Assembly (NCBI RefSeq): GCF_000685295.1
Contig: NZ_ARYL01000005.1
Location: 62,001-126,000, forward strand
Length of the DNA stretch: 64,000 nt
Origin: Hyphomonas oceanitis SCH89
GTDB taxonomy: Bacteria; Pseudomonadota; Alphaproteobacteria; Caulobacterales; Hyphomonadaceae
Direction of reading: 5' to 3'
The position numbers and the translations under genes are program-made. Numbering within the stretch: position 1 is the first letter of the stretch; every line of letters begins with the position of its first letter. The notes under the pieces were generated by a model. That model ran no database searches and was not told the DNA's origin. It was given only the letters and a program-made list of their open reading frames with translations. Below, one piece after another: positions 15,787 to 24,876 of this stretch.

Positions 15787-16155
15787 TCAATCAGCGGCGA
15801 GGCTTATCAGCGCGCTTTCCATATCGTCAAGCAAACGCGTCCAGCCAATGTCAGCGGTCGCATCCCGCGCAATGAAGACATAGTCGGTTCCGGGCTTGCC
15901 AAACCGGGGCAGAAGAAGACGCGCGGCCTCACGCAAACGGCGCTTTGCGCGGTTGCGGACAACCGAATTGCCGACCTTCTTTGTCGCCGTGAACCCTTCA
16001 CCCATATGCGTGCCGGGGGTCTCGCCGGTCCGCTGTCTCGCCTGTACCACAACGGATTTGCGCCGTTCGGCCTTGCCGCTGCGCACAAACAAGAATTGAG
16101 GCCGCTTCGCCAGGCGAACGACCTCAATCGGAATGTCTTGATTGTCCTGCGGCAT
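15787..16155 (-). CDS. rnpA: Ribonuclease P protein component RnpA
   Basis: 122 residues from the Met at 16155 (MPQDNQDIPIEVVRL). The frame stays open further upstream, but those codons overlap rpmH in another frame and are not expected to be translated. The RNase P signature is clear: a KKVGNSVVRNRAKRRLREA block that binds the RNA subunit, with FLFVRSGK and YVFIARDATA strands. It helps the RNA subunit mature tRNA 5' ends. It follows rpmH by 44 bases. Confidence 0.95.
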   Translation of the reverse strand: MPQDNQDIPIEVVRLAKRPQFLFVRSGKAERRKSVVVQARQRTGETPGTHMGEGFTATKKVGNSVVRNRAKRRLREAARLLLPRFGKPGTDYVFIARDATADIGWTRLLDDMESALISLAAD

Positions 16156-16199
16156 GGGCAGCTCCCGGCCTTTCAGGCAGCGGGAAGGTCGTGTCTCGC

Positions 16200-16334
16200 C
16201 TAGGCGGACAGTTCCTTGCGGCCTTTTGCCCGACGGCGTGCCAGAACCTTGCGGCCGTTTTTGGTGGCCATGCGAAGGCGGAAACCATGGGTACGCTTGC
16301 GGCGCAGGTTGCTCGGCTGGAATGTACGTTTCAT
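16200..16334 (-). CDS. rpmH: 50S ribosomal protein L34
   Basis: Translating the minus strand from the Met at 16334 gives 44 residues starting [18 protein letters not shown] and ending GRKELSA, a standard L34. It is very basic and heads the rpmH-rnpA-yidC-engB operon. Its promoter is visible about 45 bases upstream. Confidence 0.97.
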
Positions 16335-16372
16335 GGGTCTGCTCTAAGGCTGATGTGTCTCGGAAAGAGGGG

Positions 16373-16401
16373 CCAATACAGGCCACAGACACGAAGGTCA
16401 A
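16373..16401 (-). promoter_or_regulatory. Sigma-70-like promoter of rpmH
   Basis: Read on the minus strand: TTGACC (16396-16401), a 17-base spacer and TATTGG (16373-16378). The predicted transcript starts near 16366 and gives a leader of about 32 bases before rpmH. Confidence 0.65.
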
Positions 16402-16467
16402 GGCAGCCGGGCAGTATCCGGGGTAATTTCTGCGCATCGGACGTGGCGCATCTAACCCTTCCGCGCC

Positions 16468-17841: not shown

Positions 17842-18014
17842 GAGAGCACCTTTGAAGTTGCGCACCACAACGTGAAGAGACGCCGCAAAGTTCCGTCTGC
17901 ACAGCGTCATATCAGCATGCCAGCCATGCGCGCAACGTGTACCCGGCTCTTTACACGGCCAGCCGACTTGGCTCACACTCGCCACGGGCGGGCAGCAAGA
18001 ATCAAGGGATATTC

Positions 18015-19199
18015 ATGCGTTTCCTGCGCTCTGCCATCCTGTGCCTCAGTGCCGCGCTCGCCGTACCGGCCGCCTTGGCCCAGGCCATCGACTATGACCG
18101 TCTGGACCAGCGCCTGACGCGCCTTGCCGCCGATGATGAGATCGTCGGGCTTTCAGTTGCCGTGATCGAGAATGGCGAGATCCGTTTCGCCAAAGGCTAT
18201 GGCTTTACCGAGATCGGCGGCGCGCCTGTGACTGACACGACCGTGTTCCGCTGGGCCTCGCTCTCCAAGGGCGTGGCCGCCAGCCAGGTCGCGATCCTTG
18301 CCGAACAAGCCAGACTGAACCTCACTGACACAGTGTCCAAGTTCAAGACATCGCTGCGCCTGCCGGGCGGCGGCGAAACGCGCGCAACGCTGGAAGATGT
18401 CCTCTCCCATCGGCTCGGCATTGTCTCAAATGCCTATGACACGACGCTGGAAGACGGCCGTGACCCGGTCGAGATCCGTGAAAGCCTGCGCGGCCTGAAG
18501 AATATCTGCGCCATCGGCGAATGTCATAGCTACCAGAATGTTGCCTTCGATACCGTTTCGGAAATCGTCGAGCAGGTGACCCATTCCTCCTATGCCGACA
18601 CGGTGGAGGCCTCGATCTTCCGGCCCCTCGGCATGGTGACGGCCAGTATCGGCCGGGCTGGCCTGCAAGGTTCGGACTCCTGGGCAAGACCTTATGCGAA
18701 ACGCTCAAAGGAGGCAGGTCCCCCGTTCGAGAAGATCGTGAATGACGATTATTACCGCGTGCCCGCCGCTGGCGGCGTGAATGGCTCTGTCCGAGACCTT
18801 GCTCTCTATGCCCGCGCGCAGATGGGCCTCGTGCCAGACGTCCTCAGCGATACGGCCCTCACCATGCTTCAAACACCGCGCATCTATACCAGCCGCGAAC
18901 AATCGGGCCTCACAAGGCGCTACAAGGGCCACATGAAGGATGCCCGCTATGCCCTTGGCTGGCGCGTCTACAAATATGGCGAGACCGGCAACCGCGTCGT
19001 CGGCCATCGCGGCGCCGTGGAGGGCTACCGCTCAATGATCCTGTTTGATCCGGAACGTGACACAGGCATCGTGGCGCTCTGGAACTCCAGCTCCCGCAAG
19101 CCTGTCGGGATCGAGTTCGAAGTCATGGACATGGCCTATAACCTGCCCGCGCAGGACTGGATGGAAATCGACACGGAATCAGCTGGCGGCAGCAAATAG
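18015..19199 (+). CDS. Serine hydrolase, beta-lactamase/class C family
   Basis: 394 residues starting with a signal peptide (FLRSAILCLSAALAVPAALAQA). The active-site pattern of penicillin-recognising hydrolases is present: S82-L-S-K85 (SxxK), Y173-Q-N175 (YxN), and HRG near the C-terminus in place of KTG. It may be an esterase, D-amino-acid peptidase or beta-lactamase-like enzyme in the periplasm; sequence alone does not decide. AAGGGA precedes the ATG. It is divergent from the potassium channel gene across 173 bases. Confidence 0.9.
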   Translation: MRFLRSAILCLSAALAVPAALAQAIDYDRLDQRLTRLAADDEIVGLSVAVIENGEIRFAKGYGFTEIGGAPVTDTTVFRWASLSKGVAASQVAILAEQARLNLTDTVSKFKTSLRLPGGGETRATLEDVLSHRLGIVSNAYDTTLEDGRDPVEIRESLRGLKNICAIGECHSYQNVAFDTVSEIVEQVTHSSYADTVEASIFRPLGMVTASIGRAGLQGSDSWARPYAKRSKEAGPPFEKIVNDDYYRVPAAGGVNGSVRDLALYARAQMGLVPDVLSDTALTMLQTPRIYTSREQSGLTRRYKGHMKDARYALGWRVYKYGETGNRVVGHRGAVEGYRSMILFDPERDTGIVALWNSSSRKPVGIEFEVMDMAYNLPAQDWMEIDTESAGGSK

Positions 19200-19307
19200 C
19201 TCTCCTATCGCGATCACGGGGCTTTGATCGCAGGCCAATCAAGCGTTACGGGCATGTCATCCGGTGATAGGATATAGGTTCCGGCTGAATCCCGAGGAAC
19301 CTGTCCC

Positions 19308-20111
19308 GTGCAACCCGCCCGCGCCCTGCTTGCCACCCTGTTGATTGCGATGCCGCTCGCACTGCCCGTCATGGCAAGGGAAGCGGAGGCCGGGATCACA
19401 ACAAGAGACACTGTCATGACAGAGGCCCAGCACGCCCCGTGGACGGCGCTCCTGTCGAAATATGTGCACACCTCCCCCGATGGCGTGAACCGGTTCGACT
19501 ATGCCGCCCTGAAAGCCAGCCCGGCGGATCGCGCCGCGCTCAATGCCTATATTGCCGGTTTCGAGACCATGGACCTGTCCGGCGACAACAAGGCCGCATT
19601 CGCCGCCTGGGCCAATCTCTATAATGCCGTCACTGTGCGCCATATCATCAGCAAGTATCCCGTCCGCTCAATCAGGGATGGGTTCCTGTTCGGCGGCCCC
19701 TGGAAGAAGGTGAAAGTCATGGTCGGCGGCCGGGAAGTCTCGCTCGACGATATCGAGCACAAGATCCTGCGCCCGACCTTCCACGACCCGCGCGTGCATT
19801 ATGCCATCAATTGCGCCGCCATCAGCTGCCCCAACCTGATGGCGCGGGCCTGGGAGCCCGCCACGCTGGACGGTGATCTCGATGCGGCTGCCCGTGCCTA
19901 TGTCAACGATCCCCGCGGCGTCACGGTGACTGACGGAGGCCTCATCCTCTCGACGATCTATGATTGGTTCAAAGCCGATTTCGGCGATTCCCGACAGGGC
20001 GTCATCGACCATTTGCTCAAATATGCCGATAAAGGCCTCGCCCAGCAGATCAACGCCAATCCGAAGATCCGCTCCTACACCTATGACTGGTCCCTCAATG
20101 ACACAGAATGA
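19308..20111 (+). CDS. DUF547 domain protein, exported
   Basis: 267 residues from a GTG with GAGGAAC upstream. A signal peptide (LLATLLIAMPLALPVMA) is followed by a DUF547 fold: AAWANLYNAVTVRHI, the GGPWKKVKV block, a DIEHKILRP helix and HYAINCAAISCPNL with its conserved HxxxNC..SCP cysteines. The family is of unknown biochemical function but the conserved His, Asn and Cys suggest an enzyme. It overlaps the next gene by 14 bases and so belongs to a cluster with a TVP38 membrane protein and a flavin reductase. Confidence 0.9.
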   Translation: MQPARALLATLLIAMPLALPVMAREAEAGITTRDTVMTEAQHAPWTALLSKYVHTSPDGVNRFDYAALKASPADRAALNAYIAGFETMDLSGDNKAAFAAWANLYNAVTVRHIISKYPVRSIRDGFLFGGPWKKVKVMVGGREVSLDDIEHKILRPTFHDPRVHYAINCAAISCPNLMARAWEPATLDGDLDAAARAYVNDPRGVTVTDGGLILSTIYDWFKADFGDSRQGVIDHLLKYADKGLAQQINANPKIRSYTYDWSLNDTE

Positions 20112-20847
20112 GCCTCAAACCGACAAGCCCACACCGCTCGCTATCCGACTTTGGCCGCTTTACGTTATCGCGGCAGGTATCATCGCCGCCTGGGCGTTTG
20201 GCCTGTTCGACTATCTCTCGCTCGAGACACTCCGCACACAACAGGATGCGCTACGCAGCTTTGTGAGTGAGCATCTCTTCCTGGCCGTAGCCGCTTATAT
20301 TCTCATCTATGCCGCTGCGACGCTGTTCATGCTGCCCGGCGCGCTCTGGATAACGATTGCGGGCGGTTTCCTGTTCGGCCTCTATGGTGGCACGCCGGTG
20401 ACCATTGTCGGGGCGACACTGGGCGCCAGCCTTCTCTTCTTTGCCGCGCGAACATCCGTCGGCGCCGCCTTGCGCGAGCGCGCCGGGCCCTTCGTCAAGA
20501 AGATGGAGCGCGGCTTCCAGGAAGACGCGCTCTCCTACATGTTCGCGCTGCGCTTCCTGCCGGTCGTGCCTTTCCCGGTTGCCAATATCGCCCCGGCCAT
20601 TCTCGGCGCAAAATACCGCGACTATGCGATCACGACAGCGCTCGGCATCATTCCCGGCGTCATCGCCTATACGTGGATCGGCGCCGGACTGAGCGCCACC
20701 TTTGCAGCGGGCGAGGAACCAAACTTTGCCAGTGTCGCCAAGAACCTCATACCTGCAGTCGTTGCCCTCGGCGTGGTCTCGCTGATCCCGGTCATCTACA
20801 AGAAACTCTTCTCGAAAAAAGCCGCCAAGCTGGAAAGCGCCCTTTAA
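20098..20847 (+). CDS. TVP38/TMEM64-family membrane protein
   Basis: 249 residues with about five or six membrane helices. The central VTT/SNARE-associated domain is recognisable: LFMLPGALWITIAGG, GATLGASLLFFAAR and LRFLPVVPFPVANIAPAILG. Proteins of this fold include DedA-type undecaprenyl-phosphate or phospholipid transporters, so lipid translocation is a reasonable but unproven idea. The start inside the end of DUF547 (14-base overlap) and the stop directly touching the next ATG imply one transcript. Confidence 0.9.
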   Translation: MTQNEPQTDKPTPLAIRLWPLYVIAAGIIAAWAFGLFDYLSLETLRTQQDALRSFVSEHLFLAVAAYILIYAAATLFMLPGALWITIAGGFLFGLYGGTPVTIVGATLGASLLFFAARTSVGAALRERAGPFVKKMERGFQEDALSYMFALRFLPVVPFPVANIAPAILGAKYRDYAITTALGIIPGVIAYTWIGAGLSATFAAGEEPNFASVAKNLIPAVVALGVVSLIPVIYKKLFSKKAAKLESAL

Positions 20848-22293
20848 ATGCATGATACAAAACTTCAGGTGACGGATCACAAGGCTGATCTCGTAGTCAT
20901 TGGCGCCGGCTCAGGCGGCCTCTCGGCTGCGGCTGGCGCGGCCATGTTCGGTCTCAAGGTCGTACTCTATGAAAAAGGCGAGATGGGTGGCGACTGCCTG
21001 AACTATGGCTGTGTTCCGTCCAAGGCTCTGATCAGCGTTGCCAAGGCGGCCCAGTCTGCCCGCGACGCCGGCAAATATGGCGTAACAGTCGGGGCGCCGA
21101 CAAGTGATTGGGAAGCGGTCAAGGCGTATGTCTCCCAAGTGATCGAGACCATCGCACCGGTCGACAGCCAGGAGCGGTTCGAAGGCCTTGGCGTCACCGT
21201 TATCCGTGAGGCTGCGCGCTTCGCCGATCCGGACACGATTGTCTCGGCCACGAGCCGCACCCGCGCACGGCGCATTGTCGTCGCCACCGGCTCCACCGCT
21301 TTCATCCCGCCCATCGAAGGCCTGAGCGGCGTACCTTACCTGACGAACGAGACCATTTTCTCGATGCCGGACTTTCCCGAGCATCTCGTCATCCTCGGTG
21401 GCGGCCCCATCGGCATGGAACTCGCGCAGGCCTTCACCCGACTGGGCGCGAAGACCACAATCATCGAAATGGGCAAGGCGCTCGGCAAGGCCGATCCTGA
21501 CCATGCCGCCGTTACCCTTGGCGCCTTGCGCGCGGAAGGCGTGACCGTGCTGGAAGGCCACAAGGCCGTGCGCGTGTCCGGCGAAGGTGGGCGCATCAAG
21601 GTCCACGCCGAACACGAAGGCGTCGAAAAAGTGATCGAAGGCAGCCACCTCCTCGTCGCCGTCGGCCGGCGCACCATGCTCGACGGGCTCGATCTCGAAG
21701 CCGGCAAGGTCGATTTTGATCGCAAAGGCGTCGTCGTCGGCGACAATCTCCGCTCAGGCAGCAATTCGCGTGTCTGGGCACTGGGCGACGCTGCCGGGCG
21801 CGAACAGTTCACCCATGTCGCGGGCTGGCATGCTTCCGTCTTCTCGCGGCGCGCCTTCTTCAAGCAGCGCACCAAGGCCGACAGCCTCCCCATACCGGCG
21901 GTGACTTATACATCTCCGGAAGTGGCCCAGATCGGCCTCATGGAAGCCGAAGCGCGCGAGCAACACGGCGACTCTATCGCGACCTCCTCCTTCCCCTTCC
22001 ACGACAATGATCGCGCAATCGCCGAGGGCAAGACGCTCGGCGAAGCCAAGCTTGTCATCCGAAAGGGCAAACTGGTCGGCGCCTCGATTGTGGGCGAGGG
22101 GGCAGGGGATATTATCCAGATCCTCGCCGTCGCCATGTCGAACGGTTTGAAGGTGCAGGACCTCACCAATTTCATCTCGCCCTATCCGACCCGTTCGGAA
22201 GTCGTGAAGCGCGCCGCCTCTGCCCATTTCACAGAGGCGCTCTTCGGCAAGACAGCGAAGCGCCTTGTCGGCTTGCTCCAGCGTATCCCGTGA
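20848..22293 (+). CDS. FAD-dependent pyridine nucleotide-disulfide oxidoreductase
   Basis: 481 residues. It has a FAD-binding GAGSGG near residue 19, the redox pair C50-LNYG-C55, an NAD(P) fold at GGGPIGMELA and a second FAD contact at ALGDAA. The C-terminal dimer domain ends in PYPTRSEVV, where lipoamide dehydrogenase would have a His in HxxxxE. There is no heavy-metal domain at the N-terminus and no Cys pair at the C-terminus, so it is neither a normal Lpd nor MerA. It starts on the base after the TVP38 stop; such pairings recur in bacteria and may pass reducing power to a membrane partner (inference). Confidence 0.9.
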   Translation: MHDTKLQVTDHKADLVVIGAGSGGLSAAAGAAMFGLKVVLYEKGEMGGDCLNYGCVPSKALISVAKAAQSARDAGKYGVTVGAPTSDWEAVKAYVSQVIETIAPVDSQERFEGLGVTVIREAARFADPDTIVSATSRTRARRIVVATGSTAFIPPIEGLSGVPYLTNETIFSMPDFPEHLVILGGGPIGMELAQAFTRLGAKTTIIEMGKALGKADPDHAAVTLGALRAEGVTVLEGHKAVRVSGEGGRIKVHAEHEGVEKVIEGSHLLVAVGRRTMLDGLDLEAGKVDFDRKGVVVGDNLRSGSNSRVWALGDAAGREQFTHVAGWHASVFSRRAFFKQRTKADSLPIPAVTYTSPEVAQIGLMEAEAREQHGDSIATSSFPFHDNDRAIAEGKTLGEAKLVIRKGKLVGASIVGEGAGDIIQILAVAMSNGLKVQDLTNFISPYPTRSEVVKRAASAHFTEALFGKTAKRLVGLLQRIP

Positions 22294-22308
22294 GCTAGTT
22301 CACCTAGG

Positions 22309-23739
22309 GTGAGCGACGAGACCCGGCCCGCCCTTGCACGCGACCTGCCCGCACCCGCGCTCTCGCGCTGGTTCGAAAGCCTTTCCTTTCGCCTGTTTGC
22401 CCTCACGCTGGGCTCGGTCCTGCTGGTCGAATCGCTGATTTTCGTGCCCAGCGCCTCAGGCTTCCGCAACAGCTGGCTGAATGAGCGCGTACAGGCTGCC
22501 CGCACGGCGGCCCTCGCGCTTGATGCGTCGCCTTCGCGCAATGTGTCTGATGAATTATCCGACCAGCTCCTGATGAGCGCCGAAGTTCTCGCCGTGACCG
22601 AAATCGAGGACGACATGCGCTTCCAGCTGCTGCCAGCGCAGCAACCGGTCGAGGGCGAAACCCACAATATCGACATGCGCGGCTCGACCATGATGGGCCG
22701 GTCCTTTGCCGCATTGGGCGCATTCTTCGCCCCTAGCGACAGGATTCTCGTCATCCAGGCGGATGGGTCCGCGCCCGGCCGTGTGCTGGAGATCGTCGTA
22801 CCGCAGGCGCCGCTCAAGGCCGCGATCAGCGCCTATGCGCGGCGCGTTGCGAGCCTGTCCCTGCTGATCGCCCTCGTGGCGGCAGGCATTATCTACGTGA
22901 TGCTTCACCTGCTTGTGGTGCGCCCGATGCGGCGTGTTACGCTCAGCGCGGAGCAATTCCGCGATGATCCGGGCGCTTGGTCACGGCGCCTGCCTCCAAC
23001 ACGGCGCCGCGACGAGATCGGCCGGGCCCAGAACGCCCTCGCCGACATGGAAGAAACGGTCGCCACAAGTTTCCGCAACAAGACCCACCTGGCCGAACTC
23101 GGTACGGCGGTCGCCAAGATCAATCACGACCTGCGCAATTCGCTCGCCTCGGCGCAACTCGTCTCCGATGTGCTGGCCAGCTCCGAAGACCCCCGCGTGC
23201 AGAAGGCCGCGCCGCGCCTTGAACGCGCGCTAGAACGCGCCATCACGCTGGCCACTGAAACGCTCGACTATGGCAAGGCGACGCCGACACCGCCCCGCAT
23301 GGAAGCAGTGATACTGCGCGCCGTGCTGGACGAGGCCGCCGCTGAAGCGCTCGGCGCGCATCCCGATATCGTATGGGAAAACAATGTGCCTGCAGGCCTG
23401 CAGATACAGGCTGACGCCGACCACATGCACCGTATCACGAGCAATCTGGTGCGTAATGCCGCCGAAGCCATGACCCCGCGGGTCGAGGGGCCTTCGCGCA
23501 TTGTCGCCTCTCTCGGGCCGGACGGTCTGGATTTCACCGACAATGGCCCCGGCATACCGGATTCCGCGCGCGACAACCTGTTCCGGCCCTTTGCGGGCAG
23601 CGCGCGGCGTGGCGGCACAGGCCTTGGCCTTGTCATCGCGCGGGAGCTGGCTCAGGGCATGGGCGGAAGTCTTGTCCTCGCCGAGACGGGCCCGGACGGT
23701 ACCGTTTTCCGCCTCCGGCTGCCGGGCCTCGGCGCGTGA
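22309..23739 (+). CDS. Sensor histidine kinase
   Basis: 476 residues from a GTG. Membrane segments at about 24-46 and 182-206 flank a periplasmic sensor of some 135 residues; a HAMP domain follows. The dimerisation helix has the phospho-acceptor in INHDLRN (His273). ATPase boxes are NLVRNAAEAM, DNGPGIP and GGTGLGL. No response regulator is adjacent; the receiver protein at 6477 is 16 kb away. It lies 15 bases after the flavin reductase and may sense envelope redox or lipid state (inference). It overlaps the RluA gene by GTGA. Confidence 0.9.
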   Translation: MSDETRPALARDLPAPALSRWFESLSFRLFALTLGSVLLVESLIFVPSASGFRNSWLNERVQAARTAALALDASPSRNVSDELSDQLLMSAEVLAVTEIEDDMRFQLLPAQQPVEGETHNIDMRGSTMMGRSFAALGAFFAPSDRILVIQADGSAPGRVLEIVVPQAPLKAAISAYARRVASLSLLIALVAAGIIYVMLHLLVVRPMRRVTLSAEQFRDDPGAWSRRLPPTRRRDEIGRAQNALADMEETVATSFRNKTHLAELGTAVAKINHDLRNSLASAQLVSDVLASSEDPRVQKAAPRLERALERAITLATETLDYGKATPTPPRMEAVILRAVLDEAAAEALGAHPDIVWENNVPAGLQIQADADHMHRITSNLVRNAAEAMTPRVEGPSRIVASLGPDGLDFTDNGPGIPDSARDNLFRPFAGSARRGGTGLGLVIARELAQGMGGSLVLAETGPDGTVFRLRLPGLGA

Positions 23740-24383
23740 GCGTCTACGCTCCGCCGCAAGGCAAGGTCTGCTATCTCCACACGGACCCGGACCTGATCGT
23801 TATCGACAAGCCTGCCGAACTTCTGTCCGTACCCGGGCGCGGACCCTACAAAGCTGACTGTGCCATCGCCCGTGTGCAGGCGGACTATCCTGATGCGCTG
23901 ACCGTTCACCGGCTCGACATGTCGACCAGCGGCCTGCTTGTCTTTGCCCGGTCAAAAGCCGCCCAGCGCCATCTCGCCATCCAGTTCGAGAAAGGCGGGG
24001 TGGAGAAGACCTATATTGCCGATGTCTGGGGCGTGCCGGAAAATACCGCCAGCCTCATCGACCTGCCGCTTGGCCAGGACTGGCCAAACCGGCCTCGCCA
24101 GAAAGTCGACCCTGACAAGGGCAAGCCGAGCCAGACGCGCTATGAGACGATTGCCAGCCATGCCCATGGCGCGCGCCTCAGCCTCACGCCGCTGACCGGC
24201 CGCACGCACCAGCTGCGCCTGCACCTCGCCGCCATCGGCCATCCCATCCTCGGGGATGACATCTATGCCCATACCGATGCGCTAGGCGCGGCCGACCGGC
24301 TTCGCTTGCATGCAACATGGATGCGGTTCCGCCACCCTGCGAGCCAGGACTGGCTGTCATTCGAGGCCGTTTGCCCTTTCTGA
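23736..24383 (+). CDS. RNA pseudouridine synthase, RluA subfamily
   Basis: 215 residues from a GTG that overlaps the kinase stop. It has the catalytic Asp in HRLDMSTSG, the KTYIADVWG strand and the GRTHQLRLH motif. There is no S4 domain, as in RluA, which modifies U746 of 23S rRNA and U32 of some tRNAs; the exact target is inferred. Translational coupling to a sensor kinase is odd and probably reflects gene packing. Confidence 0.9.
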   Translation: MSVYAPPQGKVCYLHTDPDLIVIDKPAELLSVPGRGPYKADCAIARVQADYPDALTVHRLDMSTSGLLVFARSKAAQRHLAIQFEKGGVEKTYIADVWGVPENTASLIDLPLGQDWPNRPRQKVDPDKGKPSQTRYETIASHAHGARLSLTPLTGRTHQLRLHLAAIGHPILGDDIYAHTDALGAADRLRLHATWMRFRHPASQDWLSFEAVCPF

Positions 24384-24394
24384 CGAAGGGTCCG

Positions 24395-24433
24395 TTGACT
24401 CCTTCGCCACCGGGCATTATCGTTTTACGATAA
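24395..24433 (+). promoter_or_regulatory. Promoter overlapped by a 17-base inverted repeat
   Basis: TTGACT (24395-24400), a 17-base spacer and TATCGT (24418-24423) make a good sigma-70 promoter. TTATCGT-TTT-ACGATAA (24417-24433) is a perfect inverted repeat covering the -10 box and the predicted start point. It could be a repressor operator or a 5'-end hairpin on the message of the following gene. Confidence 0.6.
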
Positions 24434-24447
24434 GATGGAGTTCCAAC

Positions 24448-24876
24448 ATGCACGCCGAGATTGTTCGCCTTTCGCTTCACCATGTCGATATCAAGATCGT
24501 CAATGAGGAGCGCATGCATGTCCTGCAATGGCGGCGTAACCTGCTATGGGATGAAGTGCTGCTCGACGGGAAACGCCAGGCGGCGAGCCATGGCCTCTGG
24601 GGCCGCGAAAATGTCTATGGCCTTGTGTTTGGCCGGGACCTCGACGGTTCGGGGGGCGAACAGGTCATGTTCCTGATTGATCCGGGTGTTGGCTATACAA
24701 GCTGGTCGTCGGGCGAACAGCGCGTCAAAGGCGTCCGTCTCGAAGGCCGTGACGGTCCGCTCGTGTCGTACGGTACGCTTGATCCGAAATCGCTCGAAAA
24801 GCCCGCCACCTTCTCCGACTGGATGAAGAAGTCGATGGGCATGAACTGGGGCACGGATATTTCGCGCCCCAATTAG
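24448..24876 (+). CDS. Hypothetical protein, 142 residues
   Basis: No family recognised. The ATG at 24448 has a GGAG 8 bases upstream, and the gene has its own promoter (24395-24423). The protein has no signal peptide or membrane segment and is rich in Trp, Gly and Asp: WRRNLLWDEVLLDGKRQ, a GLVFGRDLDGSGGEQ block, and YTSWSSGEQRVKG. Its alternating strands suggest a small beta-rich cytosolic protein. It ends 8 bases from the convergent OmpA-type gene. The palindrome over its promoter suggests regulation. Confidence 0.8.
   Translation: MHAEIVRLSLHHVDIKIVNEERMHVLQWRRNLLWDEVLLDGKRQAASHGLWGRENVYGLVFGRDLDGSGGEQVMFLIDPGVGYTSWSSGEQRVKGVRLEGRDGPLVSYGTLDPKSLEKPATFSDWMKKSMGMNWGTDISRPN

Follow-up and report, generated by a model that had tools for sequence, protein, structure and literature searches.

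A TVP38-flavoreductase gene run of Hyphomonas oceanitis SCH89 as a candidate inner-membrane redox/lipid module under CenK-CenR control

CenK is an orphan envelope kinase with two transmembrane helices and no regulator gene nearby (PMC9275681, PMC9561847, PMC11389396, PMC10746171). In Rhodobacter sphaeroides it is RSP_1056 (PMC9275681, PMC5442454), and the regulator CenR is essential both there and in Caulobacter crescentus (PMC9275681, PMC11389396). DedA proteins of the COG0398 type (TVP38/TMEM64), which are essential in C. crescentus and Dinoroseobacter shibae and have been proposed to be lipid scramblases tied to aerobic metabolism, are fused in some bacteria to the pyridine nucleotide-disulfide oxidoreductase domains PF07992/PF02852 (PMC10127716). 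Here we analyzed a run of four genes, for a DUF547 protein, a TVP38 protein, a flavin-dependent reductase and a sensor histidine kinase, in Hyphomonas oceanitis SCH89 (genome G000, 4.28 Mb). The run occupies positions 19308-23739 of the window, the whole stretch of 64,000 nt in whose numbering all positions are given. The same two families are joined here as in the published fusions, but as separate genes and together with a predicted exported DUF547 protein, a kinase and a CenR-like operator; the available account of the fusions mentions neither a kinase nor DUF547 (PMC10127716). The kinase resembles CenK in being an orphan two-helix envelope kinase, and a CenR-type TCA-N8-TGA site stands before the gene run that the kinase gene ends. 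A difference is that the R. sphaeroides main text searched names no TVP38-reductase among CenR targets (PMC9275681). On balance, we slightly favor the view that the products of the operon make up an inner-membrane redox/lipid module under CenK-CenR control and that its terminal kinase gene is cenK, which appears to be the most economical reading. The features concerned are as follows.

19213..19228, + strand: candidate CenR-like operator ATCACGGGGCTTTGAT, a matrix match 80-95 nt 5' of the DUF547 start codon
19308..20111, + strand: DUF547 protein, GTG start, PF04784 at 3.6e-23
20098..20847, + strand: TVP38/VTT (COG0398-type DedA) membrane protein, Cys-free by alignment and cysteine count, PF09335 at 4.7e-21
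20848..22293, + strand: MerA-like FAD/NAD(P)H disulfide-type reductase, PF07992 and PF02852
22309..23739, + strand: orphan sensor histidine kinase, putative CenK type by gene context, HATPase_c at 4.2e-18

These coordinates agree with a preliminary description of the locus, made from the DNA alone, according to which the four genes overlap or abut on one strand. The DUF547 and TVP38 genes overlap by 14 nt, the TVP38 and reductase genes abut (0 nt), and the largest gap, between the reductase and kinase genes, is 15 nt. A consensus scan of the + strand revealed no promoter-like or terminator-like sites between the four genes. Conservation of the run was followed in a genus sample of 37 genomes, host included. 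The DUF547, TVP38 and reductase genes are present in 34 of these and jointly absent from the other three (G007, G029 and G034), which retain the kinase at 63-66% identity. Of the 34 genus loci with a reductase gene, 33 show all four genes in this order and on a single strand; the remaining one is cut off by the end of its contig within DUF547. Because order and strand are kept in this way, the run is more than a product of chance. The three trio-less genomes form one clade (support 0.997), which points to a single joint loss of the three genes; at their loci (L094, L095 and L096) a beta-lactamase-family gene, the kinase gene and an RluA-like gene are contiguous.

To look beyond the genus, one genome from each of 133 alphaproteobacterial families was searched with alignments of the four proteins. 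The reductase was found in 67 genomes, TVP38 in 75, DUF547 in 36 and the kinase in 62, with one kinase match at E<=1e-60 in each. The reductase count excludes 11 weaker rows (E about 1e-111 to 1e-101), judged to be a second reductase class; they include the sole matches of G128 and G147, the latter contig-cut and perhaps a true member. TVP38 is present in 65 of the 67 reductase genomes. With adjacency defined as lying within 400 nt on one strand, the pair is adjacent in 53 of the 65, reductase and kinase in 36/51, and TVP38 and DUF547 in 10/34; DUF547 lies away from TVP38 in 26 of the 36 genomes that have it, and 33 of those 36 also hold the reductase. TVP38 and kinase, scored within 2.5 kb, are neighbors in 42 of the 54 genomes having both. 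Fisher tests on presence, uncorrected for ancestry, ranged from 2e-24 (reductase-TVP38) to 2e-6 (DUF547-kinase). TVP38 comes first in 46 cases and the reductase in 8 (the five weakest TVP38 rows being omitted), so the pair survives swaps of order, and at one locus (L188) the two are fused in a single 716-codon open reading frame.

The kinase gene and TVP38 also meet where the reductase does not accompany them. TVP38 adjoins the kinase gene in G124 and G139, where the reductase is elsewhere, and in G114 and G037, where no reductase was found; in Caulobacter sp. HMWF025 the kinase gene stands beside a second TVP38 gene (L200) and the DUF547-TVP38-reductase genes lie elsewhere (L138). Kinase-adjoining TVP38 proteins lacking a nearby reductase are scattered over several parts of the TVP38 tree. 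DUF547 follows the reductase in G187, and in G190 it lies directly 5' of the kinase gene (L189), with TVP38 and reductase genes about 1.46 Mb away; a strong CenR-like site (15.3 bits) is found 188 nt before this DUF547 gene. Among the named loci, the best 80 of at least 590 and thus leaning to close relatives, TVP38 is adjacent in 79, the kinase is adjacent in 70 and DUF547 was found in 14. By reductase sequence, the closest of these named relatives are Hyphomonadaceae metagenome-assembled genomes (69-70%), ahead of Hyphomonas sp. TMED17 (67%) and of Henriciella aquimarina (65%). One record titled Cytophagaceae (L124) has an alphaproteobacterial-type block and is possibly a misassigned bin.

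Thus, TVP38 and the reductase are a firm core, DUF547 is an optional partner of that core, and the kinase is a CenK-type neighbor tied to TVP38. Co-occurrence of the four families, put forward earlier as a check, holds in that the families go together; it does not extend to one obligate four-protein system, since the kinase is kept without the trio in three genus genomes and without TVP38 or reductase elsewhere in the class, and DUF547 is seldom next to TVP38. That the kinase is an unrelated neighbor, as the trio-less genomes suggested, is weakened by the class-wide adjacency.

Glutathione/lipoamide-type disulfide reductases use an HxxxxE motif as acid-base pair, MerA delivers Hg(II) through a C-terminal vicinal Cys pair, and MerA, RclA and hypothiocyanite reductase reduce a metal ion or a reactive electrophile. 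The reductase of the run was said to carry the redox Cys pair and to lack the His of HxxxxE, and it does. Cys50 and Cys55 (CLNYGC; 20995-20997 and 21010-21012) are invariant in 19/19 aligned sequences, and YPTRSE at residues 446-451 (22183-22200) replaces HxxxxE, a Tyr standing where the His would. Y446, P447, T448 and E451 are invariant in two alignments (14/14 and 19/19), so that, unlike in glutathione/lipoamide-type enzymes, an invariant Y446/E451 takes the place of the usual motif. The nearest solved structures by sequence are mercuric reductase (5x1y, 1e-72) and lipoamide dehydrogenase. Two aligned mercuric reductases show PYLTMAE and PYLTMVE at the same position; as they too lack the His, its absence is a MerA-like trait. 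A Foldseek search with the model of the reductase (predicted local distance difference test, pLDDT, 90) found MerA and lipoamide dehydrogenase at a template modeling score of about 0.87; the title of one match, 4k8d, names C558/C559.

The reductase thus shares with MerA and related flavin disulfide reductases the fold, the Cys pair and the Tyr in place of the catalytic His, but differs in having no C-terminal Cys pair, Cys50 and Cys55 being its only cysteines, and in a putative extra C-terminal amphipathic helix. It scores 331 against the mercuric reductase NCBIfam cut-off of 454, and is under the curated cut-off of all of the best 25 of 70 NCBIfam matches. Identity with MerA was rejected, because the Cys pair is missing and another gene of the genome has one. 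This separate MerA candidate (L002, G000:C62:4938-6290) carries CVNIGC and a C-terminal CC pair. The putative helix spans about residues 463-479 (22234-22284); within the final 30 residues, the best 18-residue stretch is both basic and amphipathic. Ranked against its own protein, this stretch is at the 93rd percentile or higher in 13/19 sequences and at the 55th-87th in the remaining 6/19; choosing the best among as many as 13 windows per tail biases these percentiles towards high values. The model places helices at 462-466 and 468-479, with tail pLDDT of 77 and 83 per ten residues, below the core. The tail may therefore dock on the membrane.

The TVP38 protein has a VTT domain (PF09335, 76 bits against a cut-off of 33.9). 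Ten of 14 aligned sequences, the window protein included, contain no cysteine, and none is conserved. The preliminary description proposed that the reductase powers TVP38; as a thiol relay this is unlikely, because TVP38 has no conserved Cys. Read along the sequence, the alignment contains one invariant Arg (R152), and none of its acidic residues is invariant or nearly so. COG0398 DedA proteins are reported to lack acidic residues at the first re-entrant tip and, of two basic residues at the second, to keep one at most (PMC10127716). The DUF547 protein (PF04784, 82.3 bits against a cut-off of 27) begins with a signal-peptide-like stretch and is, by this reading of its N-terminus, probably exported. 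Its CxxxxC motif, Cys169/Cys174 (19812-19814 and 19827-19829), is invariant in 24/24 aligned sequences, and the model has a pLDDT of 89. A second look at the fold (best VIA Z 4.7) decides neither for a new nor for a known fold.

The kinase was assigned through HATPase_c, with HisKA (26.8 against a cut-off of 26.9) and HAMP (22.9 against 25) significant and just under their cut-offs. Two hydrophobic segments are read from its sequence, and His273 (codon 23125-23127) is the putative phospho-acceptor. None of the eight neighboring genes scanned at the kinase encodes a response regulator. In R. sphaeroides, RSP_1057 (RpoHII regulon) and RSP_1058 (RpoHI regulon) are listed with the role 'Detoxification', and CenR (RSP_0847) belongs to both regulons (PMC3441632). 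The Rhodobacterales loci in our set have the gene order TVP38-reductase-kinase. RSP_1058-1057-1056 would fit TVP38-reductase-CenK in this order, and the kinase of the run is probably CenK.

For the upstream region, a CenR matrix was built from 31 published R. sphaeroides sites (PMC9275681). The candidate operator is the best matrix match at 12.9 bits, the 99th percentile of random 150-nt windows being 12.6 or 12.1 in two draws. Matrix tests cover 33 of the 34 genus loci for DUF547, one being contig-cut. DUF547 upstream regions exceed the 95th percentile in 30/33 and the 99th in 23 or 26, depending on which of two background draws is used; TCA-N8-TGA precedes DUF547 in 26/33, against a frequency of 3.2% among 200-nt windows tiled over the loci (3510 windows). 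No value above the 99th percentile came from nine other gene starts of these loci, and OMPA starts were somewhat raised (2/12 above the 95th, 0 above the 99th). Other TVP38-led named operons pass the 95th percentile in 43/65, or in 48/64 with DUF547 loci left out. None of 400 column-permuted matrices reached the observed fraction in the genus or the TVP38-led set. When upstream regions were scored cluster by cluster as a control, on crude start calls, TVP38 gave 39%, DUF547 36%, the RNase P protein 19% and the others 0-16%. As a separate observation, 7/47 RNase P protein upstream regions are above the 99th percentile of the matrix.

The operator found here is nearly palindromic, whereas direct repeats have been described for the CenR sites of R. 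sphaeroides (PMC9275681). A search for the direct repeat TGA-N8-TGA on either strand found 9/33 before DUF547 (shuffle mean 1.95) and 1/34 before the kinase gene (2.25). The CenR site of Sinorhizobium meliloti is an inverted repeat, AGTCAC-N6-GTGACT (PMC9561847), which fits the six genus loci reading TCAC[T/C]GCCTCGTGA. In the whole host genome ATCAC-N6-KTGAT occurs at five places, and the backward control at 0.

Place 1: before the DUF547-led operon
Place 2: near-identical ATCACGCGCCTTTGAT at G000:C24:45708-45723 (L234), 76 nt upstream of a gene for an exported AhpC/TSA (peroxiredoxin-like) protein
Place 3: 61 nt before an integrase-domain fragment (L235)
Place 4: inside a gene (L231)
Place 5: 445 nt before a glutathione-reductase-like gene (L233)

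The AhpC/TSA gene was considered as the S. meliloti target srlA; this was not shown, 2axo, a solved SrlA homologue, being absent from its 12 matches.

We give a modest preference to control of the operon by CenR through this candidate operator. The preference was lowered because most DUF547-led operons outside the genus do not have the site: 3/11 named ones pass, and among 30 further loci 1/11 DUF547 and 8/29 TVP38 upstream regions exceed the 95th percentile, with no site before the reductase or kinase genes. Reductase-led named loci pass in 0/3. The site is therefore not a general one, although it is strong in Rhodobacterales-type loci and in the genus. These results weigh against the favored reading, as do several others. 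A control with tolQ, a published CenR target, failed: 1/30 upstream regions (30 loci returned for the 37 genomes) exceeded the 95th percentile, and 5/30 loci had any site over 11 bits in 1500 nt upstream. The failure may mean that the CenR regulon differs in this order or that the matrix catches another regulator. RSP_1057 and RSP_1058 are named nowhere in the available main text on R. sphaeroides CenR, which saw no CenR binding upstream of cenK (PMC9275681). The kinase was set beside CenK by gene context and not by sequences of CenK (ABA80240.1 of R. sphaeroides, CCNA_00564) or CenR. It is separable from the module, being kept alone in three genus genomes and found with neither TVP38 nor reductase in 8/62 kinase genomes at the thresholds used, and the genus loci are mutually non-independent. 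The 80 named loci share core neighbors (RNase P protein 47, YidC 46, GTPase 40, PP-loop protein 29, amino acid kinase 23), so the linkage may in part reflect inheritance of gene order. Finally, DUF547 had no match below E 0.4 among solved structures by sequence and none at E<=0.001 by Foldseek against the PDB and viral models. The idea that the kinase senses or controls the module gains support from the CenR-like sites before the operon, with the failed tolQ control counting against it.

How the parts might work together is best given as a scheme, doubtful in its biochemical details. CenK would phosphorylate CenR, encoded elsewhere, and CenR would act at the operator before DUF547. The reductase, held at the inner membrane face by TVP38 and by its own C-terminal amphipathic helix, would draw NAD(P)H electrons via FAD and the Cys50-Cys55 pair and act on a small or lipid-borne oxidant rather than on a protein disulfide. 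TVP38, scramblase-like, would move lipid between leaflets, and DUF547 would work on the periplasmic side. The chemistry, substrate and acceptor included, is a proposal only and a tentative one, a further point against the reading. Less probable still is a closed circuit in which the CenK signal would be made or relieved by TVP38 and the reductase, through lipid movement or the redox state of lipid or quinone, and CenR would set the amounts of DUF547, TVP38 and reductase, forming one homeostatic envelope loop of Alphaproteobacteria; we regard this as speculative.

Several features of the locus could be explained otherwise. No other pair is as tight as TVP38 and the reductase or has been seen fused, and these two might form the only functional unit, with DUF547 and the kinase as neighbors through conserved order at a core site. 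The kinase outliving the loss of the other three, the scattered positions of DUF547 and the conserved surroundings in many of the 80 loci agree with this. Such an account does not explain why TVP38 and the kinase gene meet repeatedly, on different branches, in genomes whose reductase lies elsewhere or was not found, why DUF547 was lost with TVP38 and reductase in one event, or why, in two genomes where it is away from TVP38, it adjoins a different member of the run, following the reductase in G187 and preceding the kinase in G190; the operator evidence within the genus also speaks against it, and we consider it rather unlikely. A detoxification pair, in which a metal ion or reactive electrophile is the substrate of the reductase and TVP38 helps move it while envelope signaling is incidental, would suit the MerA-like fold, the Tyr replacing His and the published 'Detoxification' role and stress regulons of RSP_1057/RSP_1058 (PMC3441632). 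It is improbable in view of a reductase with only Cys50 and Cys55 and no C-terminal pair, of the better MerA candidate elsewhere in the genome and of a TVP38 protein without conserved Cys or acidic residues.

The operator could also be real and belong to another regulator that recognizes a TCAC-N6-KTGA palindrome. This third account, a possible one to which we give less than even credence, draws on the failed tolQ control, the scarcity of sites upstream of DUF547-led operons beyond the genus and the contrast between a nearly palindromic site and the direct repeats of R. sphaeroides. It is countered by the inverted repeat bound by S. meliloti CenR (PMC9561847), with which the TCAC[T/C]GCCTCGTGA loci agree, and by the 400 permuted matrices, none of which did as well.

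The preliminary description also saw here a candidate for an undescribed multi-protein system. This holds in part. TVP38-reductase fusions, the scramblase proposal and essentiality are already known (PMC10127716), while a link to CenK is unreported in the literature found. No paper was found for DUF547 with TVP38, DUF547 with mercuric reductase, or TMEM64 with mercuric reductase and a histidine kinase, in a search that left most subscription papers outside; nor for CenK with TVP38-reductase or DedA, the CenK and DedA matches being unrelated. CenK was absent among the matches listed in a five-term search, and the DUF547 literature is largely on plants. If cenK does lie with, and through CenR control, a COG0398-flavoreductase operon, the CenK signal and the role of the operon become testable together.

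The genes around the run are the following.

15787-16437, - strand: RNase P protein gene, near the gene run
17937..19199, + strand: serine beta-lactamase-family protein, upstream neighbor that adjoins the kinase gene where the trio is lost
23736..24383, + strand: RluA-family pseudouridine synthase, a neighbor outside the proposed module

The kinase gene shares its last 4 nt with the RluA-like gene, so the run extends past the four genes. Farther 3', an open reading frame of 188 aa (24310-24876), without a Pfam or NCBIfam match, is conserved in many genus loci.

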